DNA from: Acidipropionibacterium jensenii DSM 20535
GTDB lineage: Bacteria; Actinomycetota; Actinomycetes; Propionibacteriales; Propionibacteriaceae
Reading direction: 5' to 3'
Assembly (NCBI RefSeq): GCF_000425285.1
Contig: NZ_AUDD01000025.1
Coordinates: 1-33,758 of the forward strand
DNA: 33,758 nucleotides
Part shown: in pieces, positions 4,973 to 33,758 of the stretch
Layout of the letters: each line of letters begins with the position of its first letter
Numbering within the stretch: the first letter of the stretch is position 1
Made by a program: the position numbers and the translations under genes
The notes under the pieces: model-generated
Told to the model about the DNA's origin: nothing
Seen by the model: the letters and a program-made list of their open reading frames with translations, nothing else
Database searches by the model: none

Positions 4973-5198
4973 CTTCCAATCTCCCGACTCTAGCCGAGCC
5001 AGCACCCCCGGCTCAGGAGTGCCGGGCTCAACGGGGACCCTCCGCCCCGCACACCAGTGGCCACCGGACCCGGGATCGGGATCACCACGGAGACGGCCAC
5101 CACAGCGATGGCCGCCACGTCGACGGACACCACGGCGCCCCGGGTGCCTCTGATGCCGTCGTCGACGACCTCCCGGATCACCCCGAAACCGCCTCTGA

Positions 5199-7145: not shown

Positions 7146-7449
7146 GTACACGGTTCTGACGCTGATCGGCATCGTCGCGGTGGTCGTCTGGGAGCTCGCC
7201 TGGGCCAGAACCGGGATCTTCTCCTCGGCCCGCTACTGGCTGACGATGGCGATCGTCTTCTTCTTCCAGATCTGGGTGGACGGCTGGCTCACGAAACTGT
7301 CGGCGCCGATCGTGATGTACGAACCCACCGAGTTCTCCGGCATCCGATTCCCCTGGGACATCCCCATCGAGGACTTCGGCTTCGGTTTCGCCATGATCAC
7401 ATTCACGATCATCTGCTGGATCAAGTTCGGCCACAGGGAGGCACGATGA
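7138..7449 (+). CDS. crtYd: heterodimeric lycopene beta-cyclase, subunit CrtYd
   Basis: The 103-aa protein has three hydrophobic segments and the second acidic cyclase motif, PIEDFGFGF, at 76-84. That motif is equivalent to PLEE of the partner and is thought to carry the catalytic acid pair. It completes the cyclase begun by CrtYc. ATG 7138 overlaps the end of crtYc, and the crtYd stop (7447-7449) overlaps the ATG of crtU in an ATGA junction, so the three genes form a tightly coupled unit. An in-frame GTG at 7132 would add two residues. Confidence 0.85.
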   Translation: MPEYTVLTLIGIVAVVVWELAWARTGIFSSARYWLTMAIVFFFQIWVDGWLTKLSAPIVMYEPTEFSGIRFPWDIPIEDFGFGFAMITFTIICWIKFGHREAR

Positions 7450-18558: not shown

Positions 18559-19650
18559 GGGCCCAGCTGAGGCCGCGGCGGCCGGCGTCGGGACCTCGTC
18601 GGGAACCGAGCCCCAGCCGTAGCGGCGCACCCGGGCGACCGCGAACAGGATCGACGAGGCCACCGCCCAGATGCCCAGCACGACGAAGGGTTCGGCGTGC
18701 ACGGCGTCGGGGAAGTAGGTGACATCTCTCATCGCGCGCACGGTGGCGCCGGTGGGCAGCCATCGCCCCATGAACTCGTAGAAGGCCGGCAGCAGTTCGG
18801 GGGCGACCGCCCCTCCCGATGACGGGTTGGCGATGATGACGAAGGTGATCCAGGTGGGCAGCAGCGCCCACTTGCCGCCGATCGTCACCCGCCAGAAGCT
18901 GTACACCGACCCGGCGATGAACATCGTCACCGCCAGAATCAGCCAGACCGGCAGCACGGGCAGCGCCTCAAGGCCGAGCACCGGGCCGATGACCAGGGTC
19001 ATCGTGAGCGCCACCCCCAGCGATCGCGCGATGTCCCAGCTGAAGTCGGCGACCAGGGACATGTCCTTGGCGTTGACCCTGGTCTGGATGGCGCCGACGA
19101 ATCCGAGGATCGTGCCACCCAGCGCCAGGTAGAACAGCACCAGGCCGTTCGGGTCGTGCGGGGCCAGCGGATGGGCGTCAACGAACTTGAGGTCGGTGCC
19201 GACCACCGCGCTGAGGGCCTGCCTGTGCTGGGTGAGCAGTTGGCCCACCGATGCCCCGGAGGCGGTCGAGATCCAGACCGTCGCGGGGGTCACCGAGGAG
19301 TCGATGATGGCGTAGATCTGCTGGCGCTCCAGGGCCTTCTGGGCGGCCGGCAGCGAGGGGTACTCGCCCACCTCGAACAGTTCCGACCCGGTGTCGTCGA
19401 GGGTGTGGGAGATCGCGGTGGCATCCATTGAGGAGCCGACCACGCCGATCGGCACGTTGCGCGGCGAGGGATCGCCCATCGCCAGGCTGTAGGACGCCAC
19501 GAAGACCGGCCCGATGATGGTGACGATGAGGGCGACCACCAGCGCAGGAAGGTGCGTCCTGGGCAGTCCCCACGGTATCCGGCGGGTCCATCTGGAGATC
19601 CTCGTACCGATCACTTCTGGAACGCCTTCCGCATATGGGTGAATCCTCAT
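18466..19650 (-). CDS. DUF3533 / ABC-2-like membrane protein
   Basis: The protein has one N-terminal TM helix (LPALVVALIVTIIGPVFVASYSLAM). An outside domain of about 110 residues follows, with NVPIGVVGSSMDATAISHTL and QQIYAIIDSSV. Four to five C-terminal TM helices contain the segment IANPSSGGAVAPELLPAF and GRWLPTGATVRAMRDVTYF. This is the layout of DUF3533/YhgE-Pip-type proteins and the permease part of ABC-2 exporters, although no ATPase gene is adjacent. Function is unknown, possibly export of a lipid or drug. The C-terminus is rich in His/Asp (DQHHDDQDEHDRGG). The start is uncertain: ATG 19650 is used; GTG 19614 with an upstream GGAAGG is also good. The 3' end overlaps ltrA tail to tail. 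Confidence 0.65.
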   Translation of the reverse strand: MRIHPYAEGVPEVIGTRISRWTRRIPWGLPRTHLPALVVALIVTIIGPVFVASYSLAMGDPSPRNVPIGVVGSSMDATAISHTLDDTGSELFEVGEYPSLPAAQKALERQQIYAIIDSSVTPATVWISTASGASVGQLLTQHRQALSAVVGTDLKFVDAHPLAPHDPNGLVLFYLALGGTILGFVGAIQTRVNAKDMSLVADFSWDIARSLGVALTMTLVIGPVLGLEALPVLPVWLILAVTMFIAGSVYSFWRVTIGGKWALLPTWITFVIIANPSSGGAVAPELLPAFYEFMGRWLPTGATVRAMRDVTYFPDAVHAEPFVVLGIWAVASSILFAVARVRRYGWGSVPDEVPTPAAAASAGPSPVALDGTPPDQHHDDQDEHDRGGRDVEGK

Positions 19651-19775
19651 CTCCCTGTCGACATCAGGGGCCGCTGACCGCGATCTCCCGGCCCGAGCTC
19701 CCCCCGCCGGACCCGGACTCGGTGCACGCACCGGTCCCGCCTCGCGTCGGCCCCCGGGACAGACTACGTGCCGGG

Positions 19776-20930
19776 TCAGCGCTTCGAGACCCTGCGCACC
19801 GCCATCTTCGTGACGACGGCGACGACACTGGGCCTGAACTGTCCGACGGCGTCGGCGACCCTGGCCGGATCCACCTTGCCGGTGTGGACCTGCTCGCAGA
19901 GCCGCAGCCAGCCCTCCCCCGCGGCCGCGGTGATCGCCGAGGCGACGGCCGCGTTGATCACACTGCCGGCCACCGGGACGAGCTTGATGAAGCTGCGGGC
20001 CAGGGCCTGCCCGGTGACCTGGGCCCCCAGTTGGGCCAGCGCCGAGGTGGACAGCATCGTGGTCATCTCGAGGTCGTAGATGGCCGCGATCCTGCCCATC
20101 ATCGTCATCTGGATCGGCGCCAGGGCGGCCGCATCCGCAACCGGGATGGGGACGGCGGCAGCAGCTGCCGCCGCAGCCGCCCCAGTGGCGATGATGGGTC
20201 GCGCCATCTCCCGCTTCCAGGGGAGGTTGAGTCGCTGGGCGATGCGAAACGCGTCCTGCTCGGTCCTGGGAGACAGTTCCAGGGTGGCCTCCACGAGCTC
20301 ACCGAGTCCGTGCCCCGTGCCCTTTCCGTGCTCGTCGTGGGAGGCGGTGAGGATGACCCGCCGGATCGGGAGGTGGATCGGGGTGCCGTGCTCGTCGACC
20401 GGGTGCTCGAGCCAGTCGACGAAGTCAGAGGTGTCCTTCGGGGCGCTGTACCTGCCGGTGACCGTGTTCCTGGTCCAGTGCACCTTCGTGAGCACCAGGA
20501 TCACCGGCAGCCCGCGGGCGTCCAGCTCACGGATCCGGTCGATGTCGAACCGGGTGAGCCGGTCGGCCTGGGAGAGCACGCAGTACCAGACGACGGCGAT
20601 CTGCTCGTCGGCCGGCCGCCTCGAGACGGTCTCCAGGTGCTGCCTGAGGGACTGCGCCGGGGACACCGCCGACCCGACCTCGAACCCCTCGAAGTCCCAG
20701 ATCCCCAGCGACTCGTCGTGGTAGTAGTTGACCCCGCTGGTCACCGGAAGACCCTTGCCGACCGCCGCGTAGTCGCGGCCGAAGACCGCGTTGACCAGGG
20801 AGGACTTGCCCACCCCGGTCTCCCCGACGATCGCCAGGTTGAACCGTCCGTAGCGGCTCCTCGCCTGGGAGGTGGCGTCGATGAACGGCCGGTCGTCGAC
20901 CTTGGGGGCGTCCTGGTGCTCTGCTGCCAT
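19776..20930 (-). CDS. P-loop GTPase with C-terminal DUF697-like membrane-associated domain
   Basis: The 384-aa protein has GTPase motifs in order: G1 GETGVGKSSLVNAVFG (about 35-50), G2 Thr in PVTSGVNYY, G3 in WDFEGFEVG, and G4 TKVH. In G3 the usual DxxG is DFEG. The C-terminal half contains an Ala-rich hydrophobic segment (ATGAAAAAAAAVPIPVADAAALAPIQ) and two further helices, including FIKLVPVAGSVINAAVASAITAAAG. This resembles the DUF697 region of YcjF/Era-like proteins and suggests membrane association. The target is unknown. ATG 20930 has AGAGG about 12 bases upstream. A TATAGT -10 lies at 21007-21002. Confidence 0.7.
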   Translation of the reverse strand: MAAEHQDAPKVDDRPFIDATSQARSRYGRFNLAIVGETGVGKSSLVNAVFGRDYAAVGKGLPVTSGVNYYHDESLGIWDFEGFEVGSAVSPAQSLRQHLETVSRRPADEQIAVVWYCVLSQADRLTRFDIDRIRELDARGLPVILVLTKVHWTRNTVTGRYSAPKDTSDFVDWLEHPVDEHGTPIHLPIRRVILTASHDEHGKGTGHGLGELVEATLELSPRTEQDAFRIAQRLNLPWKREMARPIIATGAAAAAAAAAVPIPVADAAALAPIQMTMMGRIAAIYDLEMTTMLSTSALAQLGAQVTGQALARSFIKLVPVAGSVINAAVASAITAAAGEGWLRLCEQVHTGKVDPARVADAVGQFRPSVVAVVTKMAVRRVSKR

Positions 20931-28192: not shown

Positions 28193-29335
28193 GTGAACTA
28201 TCCCGACGCGGCGGGCCCGGCCCCAGTTGGCCCAGCGGGTCCCGCCTCCCCTGAGATGCCTGGCGCTCCTGCTGCATCCGTCCTCCCCGGTGAGTCCACT
28301 GGCTCACCGGCAGACGTGATCCTCACCGGCACCGTCTTCTGGGATCTGGTGATGACCGGCCTGCCGCGCATCCCGGCCAATGGCGAGGAGATCCGGGCCG
28401 ATCAGATGGCCACCGCCCCCGGTGGAGTGGCCAACCTCGCGGTGGCCTGCGCCCGGCTCGGACTGCGTACCGGCTTGGCGACCGTGCTGGGCCACGACAT
28501 GGCGGGCCGGTTCTGCCGGTCGGTGCTGGCGGCCGAGGCGATCGACGTCTCAGCCTGCCGGGTCCTCCCGGACTGGACCACCCCGGTCACCGTCTCGGTG
28601 AACCATGCCGGGGACCGGAGGATGTTCACCCACCAGCGACCCTGCCAGGTCTCCACCGACGAGCTGCTGGCCGGCGCCAGCCATCCACGAGCCGCCCTGG
28701 TCGATCTGGGTCAGCTCCACGCCGGGGAGGGCGCGGACTGGACCCGGGCGGCCGCCGCCGCAGGCACTGCGGTGATCGCCGATATCGGTTTCGACGAGAC
28801 CGGCCGGTGGGATCGCGGGGTGCTGGCGGAGCTGGCGGTCTGCTCCGCCTTCCTGCCCAATGCCGTGGAGGCCTGCGGGCTGACCCGTCGCGACTCGGCG
28901 CGTTCGGCGGCCCGGGCGCTGGCCGAGCTGGTGCCGGTGATCGTGGTCACCGATGGGTTGTCGGGGGCCTGGGCGGTCGACGCCGACAGCGGCGAGGAGT
29001 GCCGCGTCGGGGCGATCCCGGTCCCGGCGGACCAGGTGGTCGACGCGACCGGGGCCGGGGACGTCTTCGATGCCGCCTTCACCTGGGCGACGCTGGCCGG
29101 CTGGCCGCTGGGGAAGCGTCTGGACCTGGCCAGTCTGGCCTCCAGCCTGGCGGTGCGCGGCCTCACCGGGTCGATGGCCGCCCCCGGCTGGGCGGAGATC
29201 GGCGCCTGGTGGCAGGGCCTCGGCGACTCCTCCGACGACCAGGCGATGCGACGCCGGTTCGGCTTCCTGGCCGACTGCGCACTGGATGCGCCGGCAGTGA
29301 CGCCGGCTCCCCTGACGATCGGATGGGACCTCTGA
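28193..29335 (+). CDS. PfkB/ribokinase-family sugar kinase
   Basis: The 380-aa protein has a ribokinase fold. After a 40-residue Pro/Ala-rich N-terminus, VILTGTVFWDLVM and the GG motif region APGGVANLAVACARLG form the first PfkB signature (about 75-95). DQVVDATGAGDVFDAAFTWA is the second signature, with the catalytic Asp and anion hole (about 281-300). It phosphorylates a sugar or nucleoside-like alcohol with ATP; the substrate is not known. GTG 28193 has no ribosome site; CACAAT lies six bases upstream, so a leaderless start is possible. Confidence 0.85.
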   Translation: MNYPDAAGPAPVGPAGPASPEMPGAPAASVLPGESTGSPADVILTGTVFWDLVMTGLPRIPANGEEIRADQMATAPGGVANLAVACARLGLRTGLATVLGHDMAGRFCRSVLAAEAIDVSACRVLPDWTTPVTVSVNHAGDRRMFTHQRPCQVSTDELLAGASHPRAALVDLGQLHAGEGADWTRAAAAAGTAVIADIGFDETGRWDRGVLAELAVCSAFLPNAVEACGLTRRDSARSAARALAELVPVIVVTDGLSGAWAVDADSGEECRVGAIPVPADQVVDATGAGDVFDAAFTWATLAGWPLGKRLDLASLASSLAVRGLTGSMAAPGWAEIGAWWQGLGDSSDDQAMRRRFGFLADCALDAPAVTPAPLTIGWDL

Positions 29336-29497
29336 GGGGCTCCTTTTCCGCTGGTTGGCTGCTCGGTGCTGGTGCGGCCCTGGCCTTGGAGGGTTTCCGG
29401 ACCCGGCCTGGCTTCGACAGCGGTCCTCGCCGGCCAGGCCACACACCCCGTAGTCCCTCAGCACCCACCCTCCAGCCACTCCCCGACCCCATCCACC

Positions 29498-29549
29498 GAG
29501 GTTTGGTCGACTTTGGGGCACTACACGCACCCAAACTCGACCACACCTC
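29498..29549 (+). repeat. 52-nt palindromic repeat, copy A
   Basis: The left arm GAGGTTTGGTCGACTTTGGG and the right arm (29530-29549) are reverse complements with two mismatches over 20 bp. The central loop reads GCACTACACGCA. Copies A and B also share about 12 bp upstream (GACCCCAT-C-CACC type). Confidence 0.7.
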
Positions 29550-29671
29550 CTGCTCCACCGGCCTCCGGGCCTCACTGGGCCTCGGGGCCGGGCCCACACC
29601 GCCTCAAAGGCCACCTCGGCCGTCTGACCGCACAACCATCTGTCCGGGATTCGGGATCGACCCCATTCACC

Positions 29672-29723
29672 GAGGTTCGGTCGACTTCGGGGCCGTAGAC
29701 GCACCCAAATTCGACCACACCCC
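29672..29723 (+). repeat. 52-nt palindromic repeat, copy B
   Basis: The left arm is GAGGTTCGGTCGACTTCGGG and the loop is changed to GCCGTAGACGCA. The right arm has CCCAAATTCGACCACACCCC. It is the most diverged copy and lies 174 bp after copy A in the same orientation. Confidence 0.65.
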
Positions 29724-29863
29724 CTGCCATGCCGGGCCACAGCCCTCGCCAGCCCCCGCCGGCCCTCGCCAGCCCTCGGCGACCAGTCCACACACCCCGT
29801 GAGACCTCAGCATCAACACCGACCCCGAGCGAGATAATCAGTCCGGCCCCGAGGGAGACCATC

Positions 29864-30535
29864 ATGAGCGTTCCTCTTGATCACCTCGTCCTGCTCGTCC
29901 CCCACATCGACGACTACGTCGACGAGTTCGCCCGGGTCACCGGCGTCACCCCGGTGTTCGGCGGAAGCCACCCCGGCAGGGGCACCAAGAACTACCTGGT
30001 GCGGCTCGACGCCGAGGCCGTGAGCACTCCCGGCAACCCCTCCTACCTCGAACTGCTCGTGCTCGACGACGCCCAGCCCGACGTCGCCCCGGAAGACACC
30101 ATGTTCGGGGTGGGACGCCGTGGACCCGACCCGCGGCCGGCCCTGGTGACCTGGGCGATGCACCCCGCCGACATCGAGGCGACGACGGCCAGAGCAGCCG
30201 CCGAAGGGGTGGATGCCGGCACCGTCGAGTCGTGGTCGCGCAATGCCCCCGACGGCGCCCTGTTGCAGTGGCGGGTCGCCATGAATGCGTCCATGCCCAT
30301 GGGCGGGCTGCAGCCCTTCCTCATCGACTGGGGTTCAACGCCGCATCCCTCGACCAACCCGGCTCTGGGAACCATCGCGCTGGCCGGCCTGAGCTTCGAG
30401 TCCCCGGATCCGGACATCCTCGAACACACTCTCACCGCGCTCGGGATGACCGATCTCCCACCGATCCGGTTCGGACTGGTTCCCACCATCACGGCCGACA
30501 TCAAGACCCCCAACGGGCGCATCACGCTGCGCTGA
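29864..30535 (+). CDS. VOC family protein (glyoxalase-like domain)
   Basis: The 223-aa protein starts MSVPLDHLVLLVPHIDDYVDEFARVTGVTPVFGGSHPGRGTKNYLV, the opening of the glyoxalase-like domain type (PF13468) with the conserved first His as metal ligand. YLELLVLDD supplies the Glu-containing strand. The C-terminal half (GLQPFLIDWGSTPHPSTNPALG) is characteristic of this family. Substrate unknown. ATG 29864 has AGGGAG upstream. It lies 31 bp before proC and is probably cotranscribed with it. Confidence 0.8.
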   Translation: MSVPLDHLVLLVPHIDDYVDEFARVTGVTPVFGGSHPGRGTKNYLVRLDAEAVSTPGNPSYLELLVLDDAQPDVAPEDTMFGVGRRGPDPRPALVTWAMHPADIEATTARAAAEGVDAGTVESWSRNAPDGALLQWRVAMNASMPMGGLQPFLIDWGSTPHPSTNPALGTIALAGLSFESPDPDILEHTLTALGMTDLPPIRFGLVPTITADIKTPNGRITLR

Positions 30536-30566
30536 ACCGCTCCACCAACCTCGGAGGGACACACCC

Positions 30567-31361
30567 ATGAATTCACGTCTCGGCATCATCGGATTCGGCC
30601 AGATGGGCGGCGCGATCGGCTCCGGTCTGGTCGCCAACGGGGCCCTGGACGTCGGCCGGATCATGGCCTGGGACCTCTACGCGGCGGCCCTGCAGCACGC
30701 CACCGACGTCGGCATCGGCACTGCCGGGAGTGTCGACGAGCTGTGCTCGGGCTCCGACATCGTGCTGCTGTCGGTCAAGCCCCAGGACGCCCCGACGGTC
30801 CTTGAGCAGGCCGGTGCCGGGCTGGCGGGCAAGGCGGTCGTCTCGATCGTGGCCGGCTGGAATGCCGAGACGCTGTCCGCTCACCTGCCCGAGGACGCCC
30901 GGATTCTGCGTGTGATGCCGAACACCCCGGCTCGGGTGGCCGCAGGAGCCTTCGGGCTGTCGGAGTCGACCACGGTCACCGATGCCGAACGCTCCGAGAT
31001 CGAGGAGTGGTTCTCGGCGATCGGGCTGGTCGAGTGGGTCCCCGAGCGGCTGATGGACGCCGTCACGGGGCTGTCGGGAGGGATCCCGGCCTACGCCGCC
31101 ATCATCGTCGACGCCCTGGCCGACGGCGGGGTCCAGCAGGGGTTGAAGCGACCGGTGGCCAGGCGACTGGTGCTGCAGTCGTTGCTGGGCAGTGCGAAGC
31201 TCATGCTGGAGACCGAGCAGCACCCCGGTGACCTCAAGGACGCGGTCTGCTCCCCTGCCGGCACGACGATCGAAGGAGTCCGGGCGATGGAGAGGGCAGG
31301 CGTCCGATCGGGACTCTCCGAGGCCGTCATCGCGGCCTCGCGACGAGCCTCGGAGCTGTGA
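30567..31361 (+). CDS. proC: pyrroline-5-carboxylate reductase
   Basis: The 264-aa protein catalyses the last step of proline synthesis with NAD(P)H. LGIIGFGQMGGAIGSGL is the nucleotide-binding loop. VSIVAGWNAETL and RVMPNTPARVAAGAFGL are family-typical. The P5CR signature is TGLSGGIPAYAAIIVDALADGGVQQGL, where most homologues have SGSGPAY. The end is CSPAGTTIEGVRAMERAGVRSGLSEAVIAA. Length is normal. ATG 30567 has GGAGGG upstream. It follows the VOC gene by 31 bp; no other proline genes are nearby. Confidence 0.92.
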   Translation: MNSRLGIIGFGQMGGAIGSGLVANGALDVGRIMAWDLYAAALQHATDVGIGTAGSVDELCSGSDIVLLSVKPQDAPTVLEQAGAGLAGKAVVSIVAGWNAETLSAHLPEDARILRVMPNTPARVAAGAFGLSESTTVTDAERSEIEEWFSAIGLVEWVPERLMDAVTGLSGGIPAYAAIIVDALADGGVQQGLKRPVARRLVLQSLLGSAKLMLETEQHPGDLKDAVCSPAGTTIEGVRAMERAGVRSGLSEAVIAASRRASEL

Positions 31362-31721
31362 GGACGATCCCTCCTGTAGTCGGCGGCCTTCGTCCGCGGC
31401 CGTCAGCGGGGTGTGGCGACGGTCCCCGCCCGATCGGGACAAGGCCGCTGCAGTAGATGCGAGTACTCCCGGCCTCGACACAGCACATGGCCGCCCAGGC
31501 CCCTTGAGGTCTGGTCGAGTTGGGGGCACTACACGCACCCAAACTCGACCACACCTCCTGCTCGGTCGGCCGTAGAGCCTCGCTGAGCCTCAAAGCCCGA
31601 GGAGAGCAGGCGACGGCCACCGCCCGCGCAGAACTGTCACAGCCTTCTGACATCATCGAGGAATCAACGATGAGGAGGCCGCCGCGCCGTGGCCTCGACA
31701 ACAACTCCACAGGAGAGTCCG
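31362..31721. other. 360-bp region between proC and the unknown membrane protein
   Basis: No gene is supported. GTCCC/GGGAC arms near 31420-31440 may form a weak terminator for proC. Copy C of the 52-nt repeat lies at 31506-31557. AGGAG at 31711-31715 is the ribosome site of the next gene. Confidence 0.45.
31506..31557 (+). repeat. 52-nt palindromic repeat, copy C
   Basis: The left arm is GAGGTCTGGTCGAGTTGGGG and the loop GCACTACACGCA is identical to copy A. The right arm (31538-31557) is the same as copy A. Copies C and D share CCTTGAGG at the left edge, so they form a second subfamily. Confidence 0.7.
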
Positions 31722-32699
31722 ATGAGCGGAGCGCCCCGGCACATGAACCACACCAGTGCGGGCCAGAACCTGAGAAATGTCCCGGCCGTGCTGCCCGGTC
31801 TCGAGCAGGTCATGACGCTCATCAACTCCGACCGGGTCAAGTCGCAGTCGGGGTGGCGCACCATGACGCCCACACCATGGGGATACGTCGAAGCCGTCCA
31901 GCGGAGCAACGGCGGCTTCGACTGGCACATCGGCGTCCCGAACCGCAACCGCAGCGTCGCTGAGATTCACCAGGCCGTCGCTGCGGCGACGCAGGGGGTA
32001 TTCGCGCCGCTCAGCGACGGCGGACGGTTCACCCGGGCCCAGCTCTTCGGCATCGTGGCCGGCTCTCTCACCTGCCTTGTCGCAACGTCCATCGCCGGCG
32101 GGAACGGCCTGGGAACCATGCTAGGTCTGGCAGCTCTTGCGGCACTGTGGGGCATCCCGATGGGAGAGCGGAACAAGCGGCACCAGGCTGTGGCGGACAT
32201 GTGCACATTCATCGATCCGTCGACGTTGACCGGCCCGAGAGGACGATGCCTTACGGCCCTGGCGCACCTCGCGGAGATGCCGGGAGTCACCGAGTCCACC
32301 GCGGCGGCGATGACTCGCTGCACACAGCAGGGGCCCGCGAGCCCAGCGGCGGCGGACCTGGCCGAGGCGTCGGTCACCGTGATGTCGAGGGCGCTCGGCA
32401 GCCCTGTCGTCGATGTCACCATCGCCACCGTGATCTCGGTCCTGGATCTCGTCCCCTTCGGCGCCGAGAGAACCGTCATCGACACCACCCAGCAGATGCA
32501 CGCCCTGGCCACCAAGTTGCAGGGCTGGAAATCGACGCAGATCGCGCACATGCGCCGCGACGCGCAGCAGAACCACAACCGCCGGCAGGAGGAGGCGGAA
32601 CTCTCGTCGAGGACGTACGTGGACCAGGTCGTCACCCCCTCGATGGAGGCGATCAATCGCATTCTCGACGCGGAGGCGCGGGACGACCGCGATTGGTGA
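31722..32699 (+). CDS. membrane-anchored protein of unknown function
   Basis: The 325-aa protein is not recognised. Residues 1-105 are soluble (QNLRNVPAVLPGLEQVMTLINSDRVKSQSGWRTM, then TPWGYVEAVQRSNGGFDWHIG). A hydrophobic hairpin spans about 109-145 (FGIVAGSLTCLVATSIAGG and LAALAALWGIPMG). The C-terminal half is helical, with Thr/Ala/Gln-rich and charged segments (HMRRDAQQNHNRRQEEAEL) and probably coiled. ATG 31722 has AGGAG (31711-31715) six bases upstream; GTG 31689 would add 11 residues. The gene is bracketed by repeat copies C and D. Codon use looks less extreme in GC than its neighbours, which may suggest later acquisition. Confidence 0.55.
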   Translation: MSGAPRHMNHTSAGQNLRNVPAVLPGLEQVMTLINSDRVKSQSGWRTMTPTPWGYVEAVQRSNGGFDWHIGVPNRNRSVAEIHQAVAAATQGVFAPLSDGGRFTRAQLFGIVAGSLTCLVATSIAGGNGLGTMLGLAALAALWGIPMGERNKRHQAVADMCTFIDPSTLTGPRGRCLTALAHLAEMPGVTESTAAAMTRCTQQGPASPAAADLAEASVTVMSRALGSPVVDVTIATVISVLDLVPFGAERTVIDTTQQMHALATKLQGWKSTQIAHMRRDAQQNHNRRQEEAELSSRTYVDQVVTPSMEAINRILDAEARDDRDW

Positions 32700-32815
32700 T
32701 CGGTCGCTGCACGGCCAGCCTCCCGTCGGCCACTCCGGTCCTCGCAGATGAGAAATCGGCCGCCAGCGGGAGGACGTGCTGGTCCGGCTCCAGCCTCAGC
32801 ACCGCAGGTGCCACA

Positions 32816-32842
32816 CTCATGCTTGAGACTGAGCAGCACCGC
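32816..32842 (+). pseudogene. short proC-like fragment
   Basis: The stretch reads LMLETEQH in one frame and is nearly identical in DNA to proC codons at about 31199-31223 (CTCATGCTKGAGACYGAGCA, two substitutions). No further proC similarity follows. It may be a remnant of a duplication or a chance match; it stands 22 bp before repeat copy D. Confidence 0.3.
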
Positions 32843-32864
32843 GTAGAGGGCCCGTCCGGCCCTT

Positions 32865-32916
32865 GAGGTTCGGTCGAGTTGGGGGCACTACACGCACCCG
32901 AAGTCGACCACACCTC
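32865..32916 (+). repeat. 52-nt palindromic repeat, copy D
   Basis: The left arm is GAGGTTCGGTCGAGTTGGGG and the loop is GCACTACACGCA. The right arm (32897-32916) is CCCGAAGTCGACCACACCTC. The orientation is the same as A-C. Confidence 0.7.
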
Positions 32917-32976
32917 CAGCCCGTCGAGGCGCCAAAGCCGCACGAAACCTCGAAGTAGCCCCAGCCCGCCCGCAAG

Positions 32977-33420
32977 TCAGTCGGAACTGGGACCCGATCC
33001 GCCAGCCGAGTTCCCCTGCCCGCGACGCTTACGTTCCCGGAGCCTGTCCCACTCGGCGAGCTTCTCGCCGATGATCTGCTCGTACCCGTTACGGGTGGGC
33101 CGGTACAGCGTCGGCCGGTCCACCCCCTCGGGGAAGTAGTCGGCCCCGGAGAACCCGTCTGCGGTCTCGGGGTCGTACTGGTAGCCCTTCCCGTACCCCA
33201 GGTTCTTCATGAGTCGGGTGGGTGCGTTGAGGATGTGGGCGGGCGGGGTGAGGGAACCCGTTCTGCGCGCCAGCCGCTGGGCCTCGCCGAAGCCGCGGTA
33301 CACCGCGATCGACTTCGGCGCGGTGGCCAGGTAGACGACGGCCTGGGCGATGGCGAGCTCCCCCTCCGGGGAGCCCAGGCGCTGATAGACGTCCCATGCC
33401 GCCAGGGCCTGCTGCACCGC
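32977..33420 (-). pseudogene. rarA: rarA (mgsA) C-terminal remnant
   Basis: About 147 residues match the end of RarA, the AAA+ replication-associated recombination ATPase: AWDVYQRLGSPEGELAIAQAVVYLATAPKS, then YRGFGEAQRLARRTGSLTPPAHILNAPTRLMKNLGYGKGYQYDPETADGFSGADYFPEG, and the closing WDRLRERKR. The AAA+ core with Walker motifs is missing; the frame is abutted by a transposase at 33421. No start or ribosome site exists for the remnant. The 5' part may lie beyond the insertion element, outside the window. Loss would affect rescue of stalled forks, if no other copy exists. Confidence 0.75.
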
Positions 33421-33758
33421 CTAGGTGTACTTCCCCGTGACGTTGTGAACGCGGGCTGAGGGAGTCTGGCCGCCGATCCCGGTGTGGGGTCTGTGGTGAT
33501 TGTAGTGATGGAGCCAGGTCTCGTAGGCTGCGGCGCGCTCGGCTTCGCTGGCGTAGGGCTTCGCGTAGGCCCACTCGACGGCGAGGGTCCGGTTGAACCG
33601 CTCGACCTTGCCGTTGGTCTGCGGCCGGTATGGCCGGGTCCACTTGTGCTTCACCTCGTCGCCGAGCGCGTCAGCGAAGGCGCCTGACCGGTAGCAGGAA
33701 CCGTTGTCGGTCATCACCGCGGTGACTGTGACGCCCAGGCCTGCGAAGAACGCGTTCG
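33421..33758 (-). CDS. IS481-family transposase, C-terminal part
   Basis: The visible 112 codons continue past the right edge. The sequence carries the second and third residues of the DDE triad: VMTDNGSCYRSG (Asp) and RPYRPQTNGKVERFNRTLAVEW (Glu). It continues with the IS481-typical HHYNHHRPHTGIGGQTP and ends GKYT followed by TAG. The RNase H-like domain cuts and joins element ends. The N-terminal HTH and first Asp are outside the window. The TAG stop is in the same frame as the rarA remnant that follows. Confidence 0.85.
   Translation of the reverse strand, partial: NAFFAGLGVTVTAVMTDNGSCYRSGAFADALGDEVKHKWTRPYRPQTNGKVERFNRTLAVEWAYAKPYASEAERAAAYETWLHHYNHHRPHTGIGGQTPSARVHNVTGKYT
33421..33758 (-). 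mobile_element. IS481-like insertion sequence, one end
   Basis: The element end lies close to 33426, where the plus strand reads TGTACTTCCCCGTGACG; IS481-family ends often start with TGT. CTAG at 33421-33424 stands just outside it; Bordetella IS481 inserts at NCTAGN. The other end is outside the window, so neither the inverted repeat nor a target duplication can be confirmed. Confidence 0.65.

Follow-up and report, generated by a model that had tools for sequence, protein, structure and literature searches.

Short palindromes dispersed between bacterial genes are familiar from the repetitive extragenic palindromes (REPs), whose copies lie beside a partner gene for a REP-associated tyrosine transposase (RAYT, or TnpA-REP, a Y1 HUH transposase), with repeat and protein diverging together in what is called a REPtron. 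REPs usually exceed 100 copies per genome (PMC2817692). Inverted repeats also lie near the genes of AbiE type IV toxin-antitoxin systems, which feature an N-terminal AbiEi_4 winged helix, and DUF559 proteins are probably Vsr-like endonucleases. For Acidipropionibacterium jensenii itself, a report on two strains (PMC6920887) describes twelve small arrays in each, without cas genes, mostly intergenic and of unknown role, with one or two spacers and direct repeats of 23-43 nt. Here we analyse four 52-nt hairpins, copies A to D, in a 33,758-nt stretch of A. jensenii DSM 20535 (NZ_AUDD01000025.1, hereafter the window), which is the whole of contig C24 of the genome G000 (3,028,354 bases, 56 contigs). 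The published arrays may include repeats of the window type.

Based on sequence comparisons, we give a probability of about 0.5 to the reading that A to D are single, scattered copies of a REP-like palindrome whose partner is an AbiEi_4-DUF559 protein, encoded on contig C27 of the same genome, in place of a RAYT. The likeness to REP/RAYT systems lies in the short, dispersed, intergenic palindromes (12 of 12 copies here), the copies flanking one partner gene, and the joint divergence of repeat and protein, with the partner drawn from another gene family. The first-pass annotation had called the repeats REP-like or akin to miniature inverted-repeat transposable elements (MITEs) and proposed a search for a matching transposase. 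The REP-like form stands, but G000 has no match to PF01797 (Y1) and yields 12 copies among the best 150 candidates scored. The same profile finds matches in 5 of 14 genomes as a control, and a RAYT partner was rejected. The hairpins here also differ from REPs in lacking GTAG at the foot, where GAGG is usual and GTAG or CTAC occurs in the loop instead, and in that flanking hairpins are direct in the pairs read by eye. Searches of open-licence papers in PubMed Central (PMC) turned up no account that connects AbiEi_4 or DUF559 proteins to dispersed palindromic repeats.

The hairpin family

Folding and covariance-model searches confirmed the four hairpins at the places first described, all on the + strand, at 29498..29549 (A), 29672..29723 (B), 31506..31557 (C) and 32865..32916 (D); gene calls place C ~145 nt past the proC stop. 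Compared with shuffled sequences, the + strand folds with z scores of -8.5 (A), -6.6 (C) and -4.7 (D), while B folds more weakly (z -2.2 on the + strand, -4.7 on the - strand). The loop of B, GCCGTAGACGCA, is indeed changed, but so are loops of copies beyond B, such as ACAGTAGACGCA and GCAGGACACGCA. A division into A/B and C/D subfamilies holds in part: C and D have a common 5' arm, and A and B a common sequence just upstream, but A and C have 34 nt in common downstream.

A genome-wide search with the covariance model yields 12 places on five contigs, with E values of 3.6e-18 to 7.9e-12 when the better strand is taken: four each on C24 and C27, two on C4, and one each on C8 and C49. A pattern search allowing at most three mismatches returns 10 places, and the pattern read backwards returns none. 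In the model searches only the top 150 or 40 candidates of each genome were scored, which may have let diverged copies escape, and G000, G003 and G004 are draft genomes. Gene calls, made with a simple composition-based script, put all 12 copies between genes, which bears out the expectation of further copies outside coding regions. With a non-coding fraction of 12.7% in 380 kb sampled, the chance of such placement is ~2e-11 for 12 copies, or 3e-5 with each contig counted once. Contig C27 holds a tandem array. Within the genus, G004 carries three further window-type copies by the covariance model: one just past a hydantoin racemase gene, the same place as the C49 copy of the window genome, one after der, and one with a 998-bp piece of the insertion sequence (IS) IS1380 within its loop. 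In G003, the model finds no copy at the thresholds used.

The loop had been thought better conserved than parts of the arms, suggesting selection on the RNA or on a loop-recognising protein. Over the 12 copies, the loop carries 1.57 bits per position, compared with 1.65 and 1.61 for the arms taken as a whole and 1.90 for the inner stem, so it is not the better conserved element. Selection on the RNA is likewise unsupported, because pairing (82.1% of cells) is equalled in 247 of 500 shuffles and there is no excess of pairs changed on both sides. On the + strand there are 22 C.A/A.C mismatches and 4 G.T/T.G, many of the changes being shared by descent, and the - strand has the lower energy in 11 of 13 sequences; this is a weak hint that the G-rich strand is the favoured form. 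In an Rfam search of the window, copies A to D match no RNA family above the gathering score.

Other origins were considered and set aside. Positions 29880-32980 of the window have no match in plasmids, and positions 29480-32980 have one 7% partial phage match; the arm pattern has 0 matches in viral contigs, where three loop matches occur without arms. In 21 stretches from other organisms there are palindromes that have GGTCGA arms but different loops; these were treated as unrelated. Those at L036, L039, L043 and L046 come from three Solirubrobacterales/Solirubrobacteraceae records and one Svornostia record, two of them from one isolate, and may represent a separate repeat family. A tblastn search with AbiEi_4-DUF559-like proteins (nine queries, one misframed) found no homologue at the GGTCGA-palindrome loci.

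The candidate partner gene and its flanking hairpins

The candidate partner is a lone AbiEi_4-DUF559-like gene of 311 aa on C27 (~19292-20227, - strand), with copies H, M and K on one side and copy I, detected by the covariance model, 357 nt away on the other. The idea of a protein that recognises the repeat thus has a candidate, but its original rationale, loop conservation, is gone. Among nine homologues, AbiEi_4 (the N-terminal winged helix) matches eight, and the DUF559 profile matches five at E <=0.05 (best 1.7e-5). Residues E199, D228, E239, D241 and H246 are invariant in all nine, with ELDG at 239-242, and there is a weak match to 3hrl, named endonuclease-like (E 0.056). The conserved positions may correspond to those of DUF559 proteins, from which the homologues differ in carrying a winged helix as well and in their pairing with palindromes. 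Similarly, the winged helix and nearby inverted repeats recall AbiE, but no AbiEii (DUF1814) toxin occurs among the 10 neighbouring genes examined at eight loci, the C27-type proteins have an extra C-terminal nuclease-like domain, and the palindromes lie on both sides of the gene and elsewhere in the genome. No AbiEi_4-DUF559 relatives were found in plasmids or viral contigs.

We compared eight homologues from the genus, comprising all nucleotide matches of >300 nt to the C27 gene region (~10 kb each; matches of 74 and 29 nt were left out), one of which lies in the window genome too, on C31. A strict scan (arms of at least 15, at most two mismatches) detects a hairpin on each side, no more than 180 nt away, at six of the eight. 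A second, fixed 400-nt scan was run alike on the homologue loci and on 433 control genes from 32 other stretches. Hairpins occur on at least one side at 8/8 homologues vs 76/433 controls, on both sides at 5/8 vs 1/433 (Fisher 2.5e-9), and on both sides with a match of at least 0.5 at 4/8 vs 0/433; most of these statistics rest on eight loci of one genus, orthologues among them. When the orthologues L187/L189 and L188/L191 are merged, the figures become 4/6 for both sides (4.9e-8) and 3/6 for matching sides (1.4e-6), and when C27 and L059, both met through hairpins, are added, 6/10 and 5/10.

Two side observations belong here. In G004, near-identical palindromes with 31-33-bp arms (L059:5976-6045 and 7284-7349) flank a gene that looks DUF559-like by eye and has no Pfam match above the cut-off; the layout is the same, with another gene type. 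Beside copies F and G lies a DUF222-like gene (L055:5020-6027, - strand; Pfam match below the cut-off) with many DNA relatives in the genus at ~63-72% identity. As a partner, it was dismissed as chance, given that no control gene, seven DUF222 loci included, has matching hairpins on both sides.

The control comparison also bears on whether the hairpins are ordinary transcription terminators, or hairpins of mRNA 3' ends, that came to be alike in sequence via local duplication, which we consider quite unlikely. Copy E on C8 would fit: its 20-bp palindrome is perfect, TTTTGTG comes next, and four relatives each have their own, unrelated hairpin at this place. The G004 copy after der, with TGTTTT behind it, would fit as well. 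However, E is the one copy of the 12 with a T run after the stem, A to D having none, the window copies lie ~145-337 nt from stop codons, and two-sided hairpins are as rare at control genes as just given.

The strongest rival is that the AbiEi_4 protein is a regulator and the palindromes its operators, with the flanking pair serving autoregulation and the dispersed copies a small regulon. There is a precedent: AbiEi and Rv2827c control their own expression and bind inverted repeats within their promoters (PMC7319586). At L187, L189, L191, L192, L193 and L194, the gene has a hairpin 25-173 nt upstream. In the window, two + strand genes have copies upstream in positions that would suit an operator, A and B before the glyoxalase gene and C before an orphan gene. 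We nevertheless regard an operator role as unlikely: the homologues have hairpins downstream of the gene too, of the eight copies that are not at the C27 gene, four (D, E, F and G) have convergent genes on their two sides, where there is little to control, and the nuclease-type residues are kept.

Hairpin and protein diverge together. Over 10 loci, hairpin similarity follows protein identity (Mantel r 0.80, p 5e-5), also without the close orthologues L189 and L191 (r 0.56, p 0.005); the input was one hairpin per locus, chosen by us, with pieces used for two broken genes. The two proteins nearest to that of C27 (66% and 64%) have the most similar hairpins (0.27 and 0.37), with a third nearly as similar (0.26). 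Hairpin families differ between paralogues: the genes on C31 of G000 and in G001 and G004 adjoin what seems to be the same neighbour, which we take to be treY (an alpha-amylase domain is present in the L192 neighbour), yet their hairpins differ.

Clustering of 87 strong hairpins, a few of them from overlapping stretches, placed 29 in seven multi-copy families, six of which are linked to AbiEi_4-DUF559-like genes, the stretches having been chosen partly for those genes. As an exploratory result with a motif picked after looking, GAGTT/AACTC occurs in 29/38 hairpins of gene-linked families vs 0/38 background hairpins, and in 12/18 once families found through the window sequence are left out; three small families lack the motif, and members of one family are not independent of each other. 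Another motif, at the centre, was patchy (5/12 in the window family) and was set aside.

Beyond the genus, a search of 147 genomes of the family with the hairpin model gave matches at E <=0.05 in 13, four of them in the genus. The matches outside the genus form 11 distinct sites in nine genomes; by eye, several of these sites seem to be coding or weak. A homologue lies beside three of the 11 (L115, L120, L124), and the other sites have none in the 3 kb around. G037 has hairpins on both sides of its homologue, G113 has one hairpin at a gene that is broken, plus two copies in other places, and G099 has a hairpin array on one side of the homologue.

Occupied and empty sites, and the window loci

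Comparison of related genomes shows sites with and without an intervening gene. In G001, a hairpin-orphan gene-hairpin unit (L189:5626-6821) stands where G002 has a single hairpin (L187:5943-5992), between an AbiEi_4-DUF559-like gene and a chaperonin gene. The outer flanks align, left and right each to a different side. Likewise, copies C and D of the window, in direct orientation, bracket an orphan gene of 325 aa without a Pfam or NCBIfam match (31722..32699, +). Near YbjQ and lysS, G000 has hairpins with an AbiEi_4-DUF559-like gene, and G001 and G002 each have one hairpin of their own family, without such a gene in 4.5 kb.

Copies A and B share the intergenic stretch 29336..29816 (strand not assigned), between a PfkB-type carbohydrate kinase gene (28316..29335, +) and the glyoxalase-like gene (29864..30535, +), which is followed by proC (30567..31361, +), the left neighbour of copy C. 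At the A/B stretch, the relatives G003 and G004 carry a ~7-kb block of metabolic genes. Identity over the window locus is 83 and 88% for G003 and 77 and 79% for G004, and because G003 is thus the nearer relative, the block was likely lost in the window genome. By eye, G003 has different hairpins at the proC and glyoxalase places of window copies C and A/B (L079:3310-3349 and 4993-5030).

In G004, a window-type hairpin with perfect 20-nt arms holds a 998-bp internal IS1380 fragment in its loop (L176:1475-2523; G004:C10:149691-150739). The fragment, 95% identical to resident copies, sits between TT and GTTAGACAG, and no target duplication was seen there by eye. This is DNA capture at the hairpin tip. 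Since part of an IS1380 transposase gene lies between the arms here, the family might be taken for a MITE of an IS1380-family element with the arms as its ends. That is highly improbable and largely refuted: 0 of 13 full-length IS1380 copies in the genus carry the arms (best 14/18 letters), six of the 13 show other inverted ends, and the 998-bp piece, placed inside the loop, corresponds to the interior of the resident copies.

The same observations raise the question of whether the palindromes are passive recombination substrates, old fragile sites at which breaks, or recombination between copies, shuffle genes, with the AbiEi_4-DUF559 gene as a passenger. The position of A and B where relatives hold the 7-kb block, the tandem array on C27 and the loop that captured other DNA would all agree with this. 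It leaves unexplained, however, why matching hairpins stand on both sides of one gene family and why hairpin and protein co-diverge, and we think it very unlikely.

Elsewhere in the window, the sole Rfam match is a guanidine-II riboswitch (RF01068, 4921-4969, - strand, 39.7 bits). At the contig end, an IS481-type transposase (33421-33756, -) abuts a RarA/MgsA C-terminal fragment (32977-33417, -).

A putative repeat-plus-nuclease system

Returning to the reading in which an AbiEi_4-DUF559 protein serves the repeat, we infer that the C27 protein binds, cuts and spreads the palindrome. Recognition of the cognate palindrome would fall to the N-terminal winged helix, and nicking or cutting to the DUF559-like nuclease domain at the C-terminus. 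During the repair that follows, either the hairpin alone or a whole hairpin-gene-hairpin unit would be copied to a fresh intergenic site or into a hairpin already present. In the proposed scheme, this works like a REPtron (PMC8266576), with three usual REPtron features absent. More broadly and only tentatively, the lone AbiEi_4-DUF559 proteins of these Actinomycetota could be palindrome nucleases of a new mobile system and not antitoxins. Repair would insert hairpin-gene-hairpin cassettes, holding the nuclease gene or an orphan gene as at C/D, at existing hairpins, and repeat and enzyme would co-evolve as REPs and RAYTs do, by unrelated enzymology.

Several findings weigh against this reading. 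No target duplication was seen by eye at any of the 12 copies, no exact boundary of a solitary copy was seen, and 12 copies is a low number for a mobile repeat. The DUF559 match of the C27 protein itself falls below the cut-off (E 0.0057), and its locus counts as one-sided in the 400-nt scan, because copy I is too decayed for that scan. Flanking is also uneven among the homologues: L188 has no hairpin by the strict scan and one on each side by eye, one of them imperfect; L190 has a hairpin on one side only by the strict scan; and the two sides at L192 are less alike (0.43). The homologues at L191, L193 and L228 are broken, and a 43-residue homologue piece in G001 (L233) has no strong hairpin within 5 kb. 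Finally, for the three window-type copies of G004 no window-type cognate gene turned up in this 86% complete draft, in which no direct search was made.

Altogether, the hairpin-gene pairing may be a new kind of repeat-plus-enzyme element. The proposal predicts that each paralogue binds or cuts the hairpin that flanks it and leaves alone those of the other paralogues. If true, it would describe a REP-like system built on a different enzyme, and it would give a role to an orphan-gene class, the lone AbiEi_4-DUF559 genes, which look like stray antitoxins or unknown proteins. It might also explain the intergenic repeats of A. jensenii that have been flagged as arrays resembling clustered regularly interspaced short palindromic repeats (CRISPR) without cas genes.

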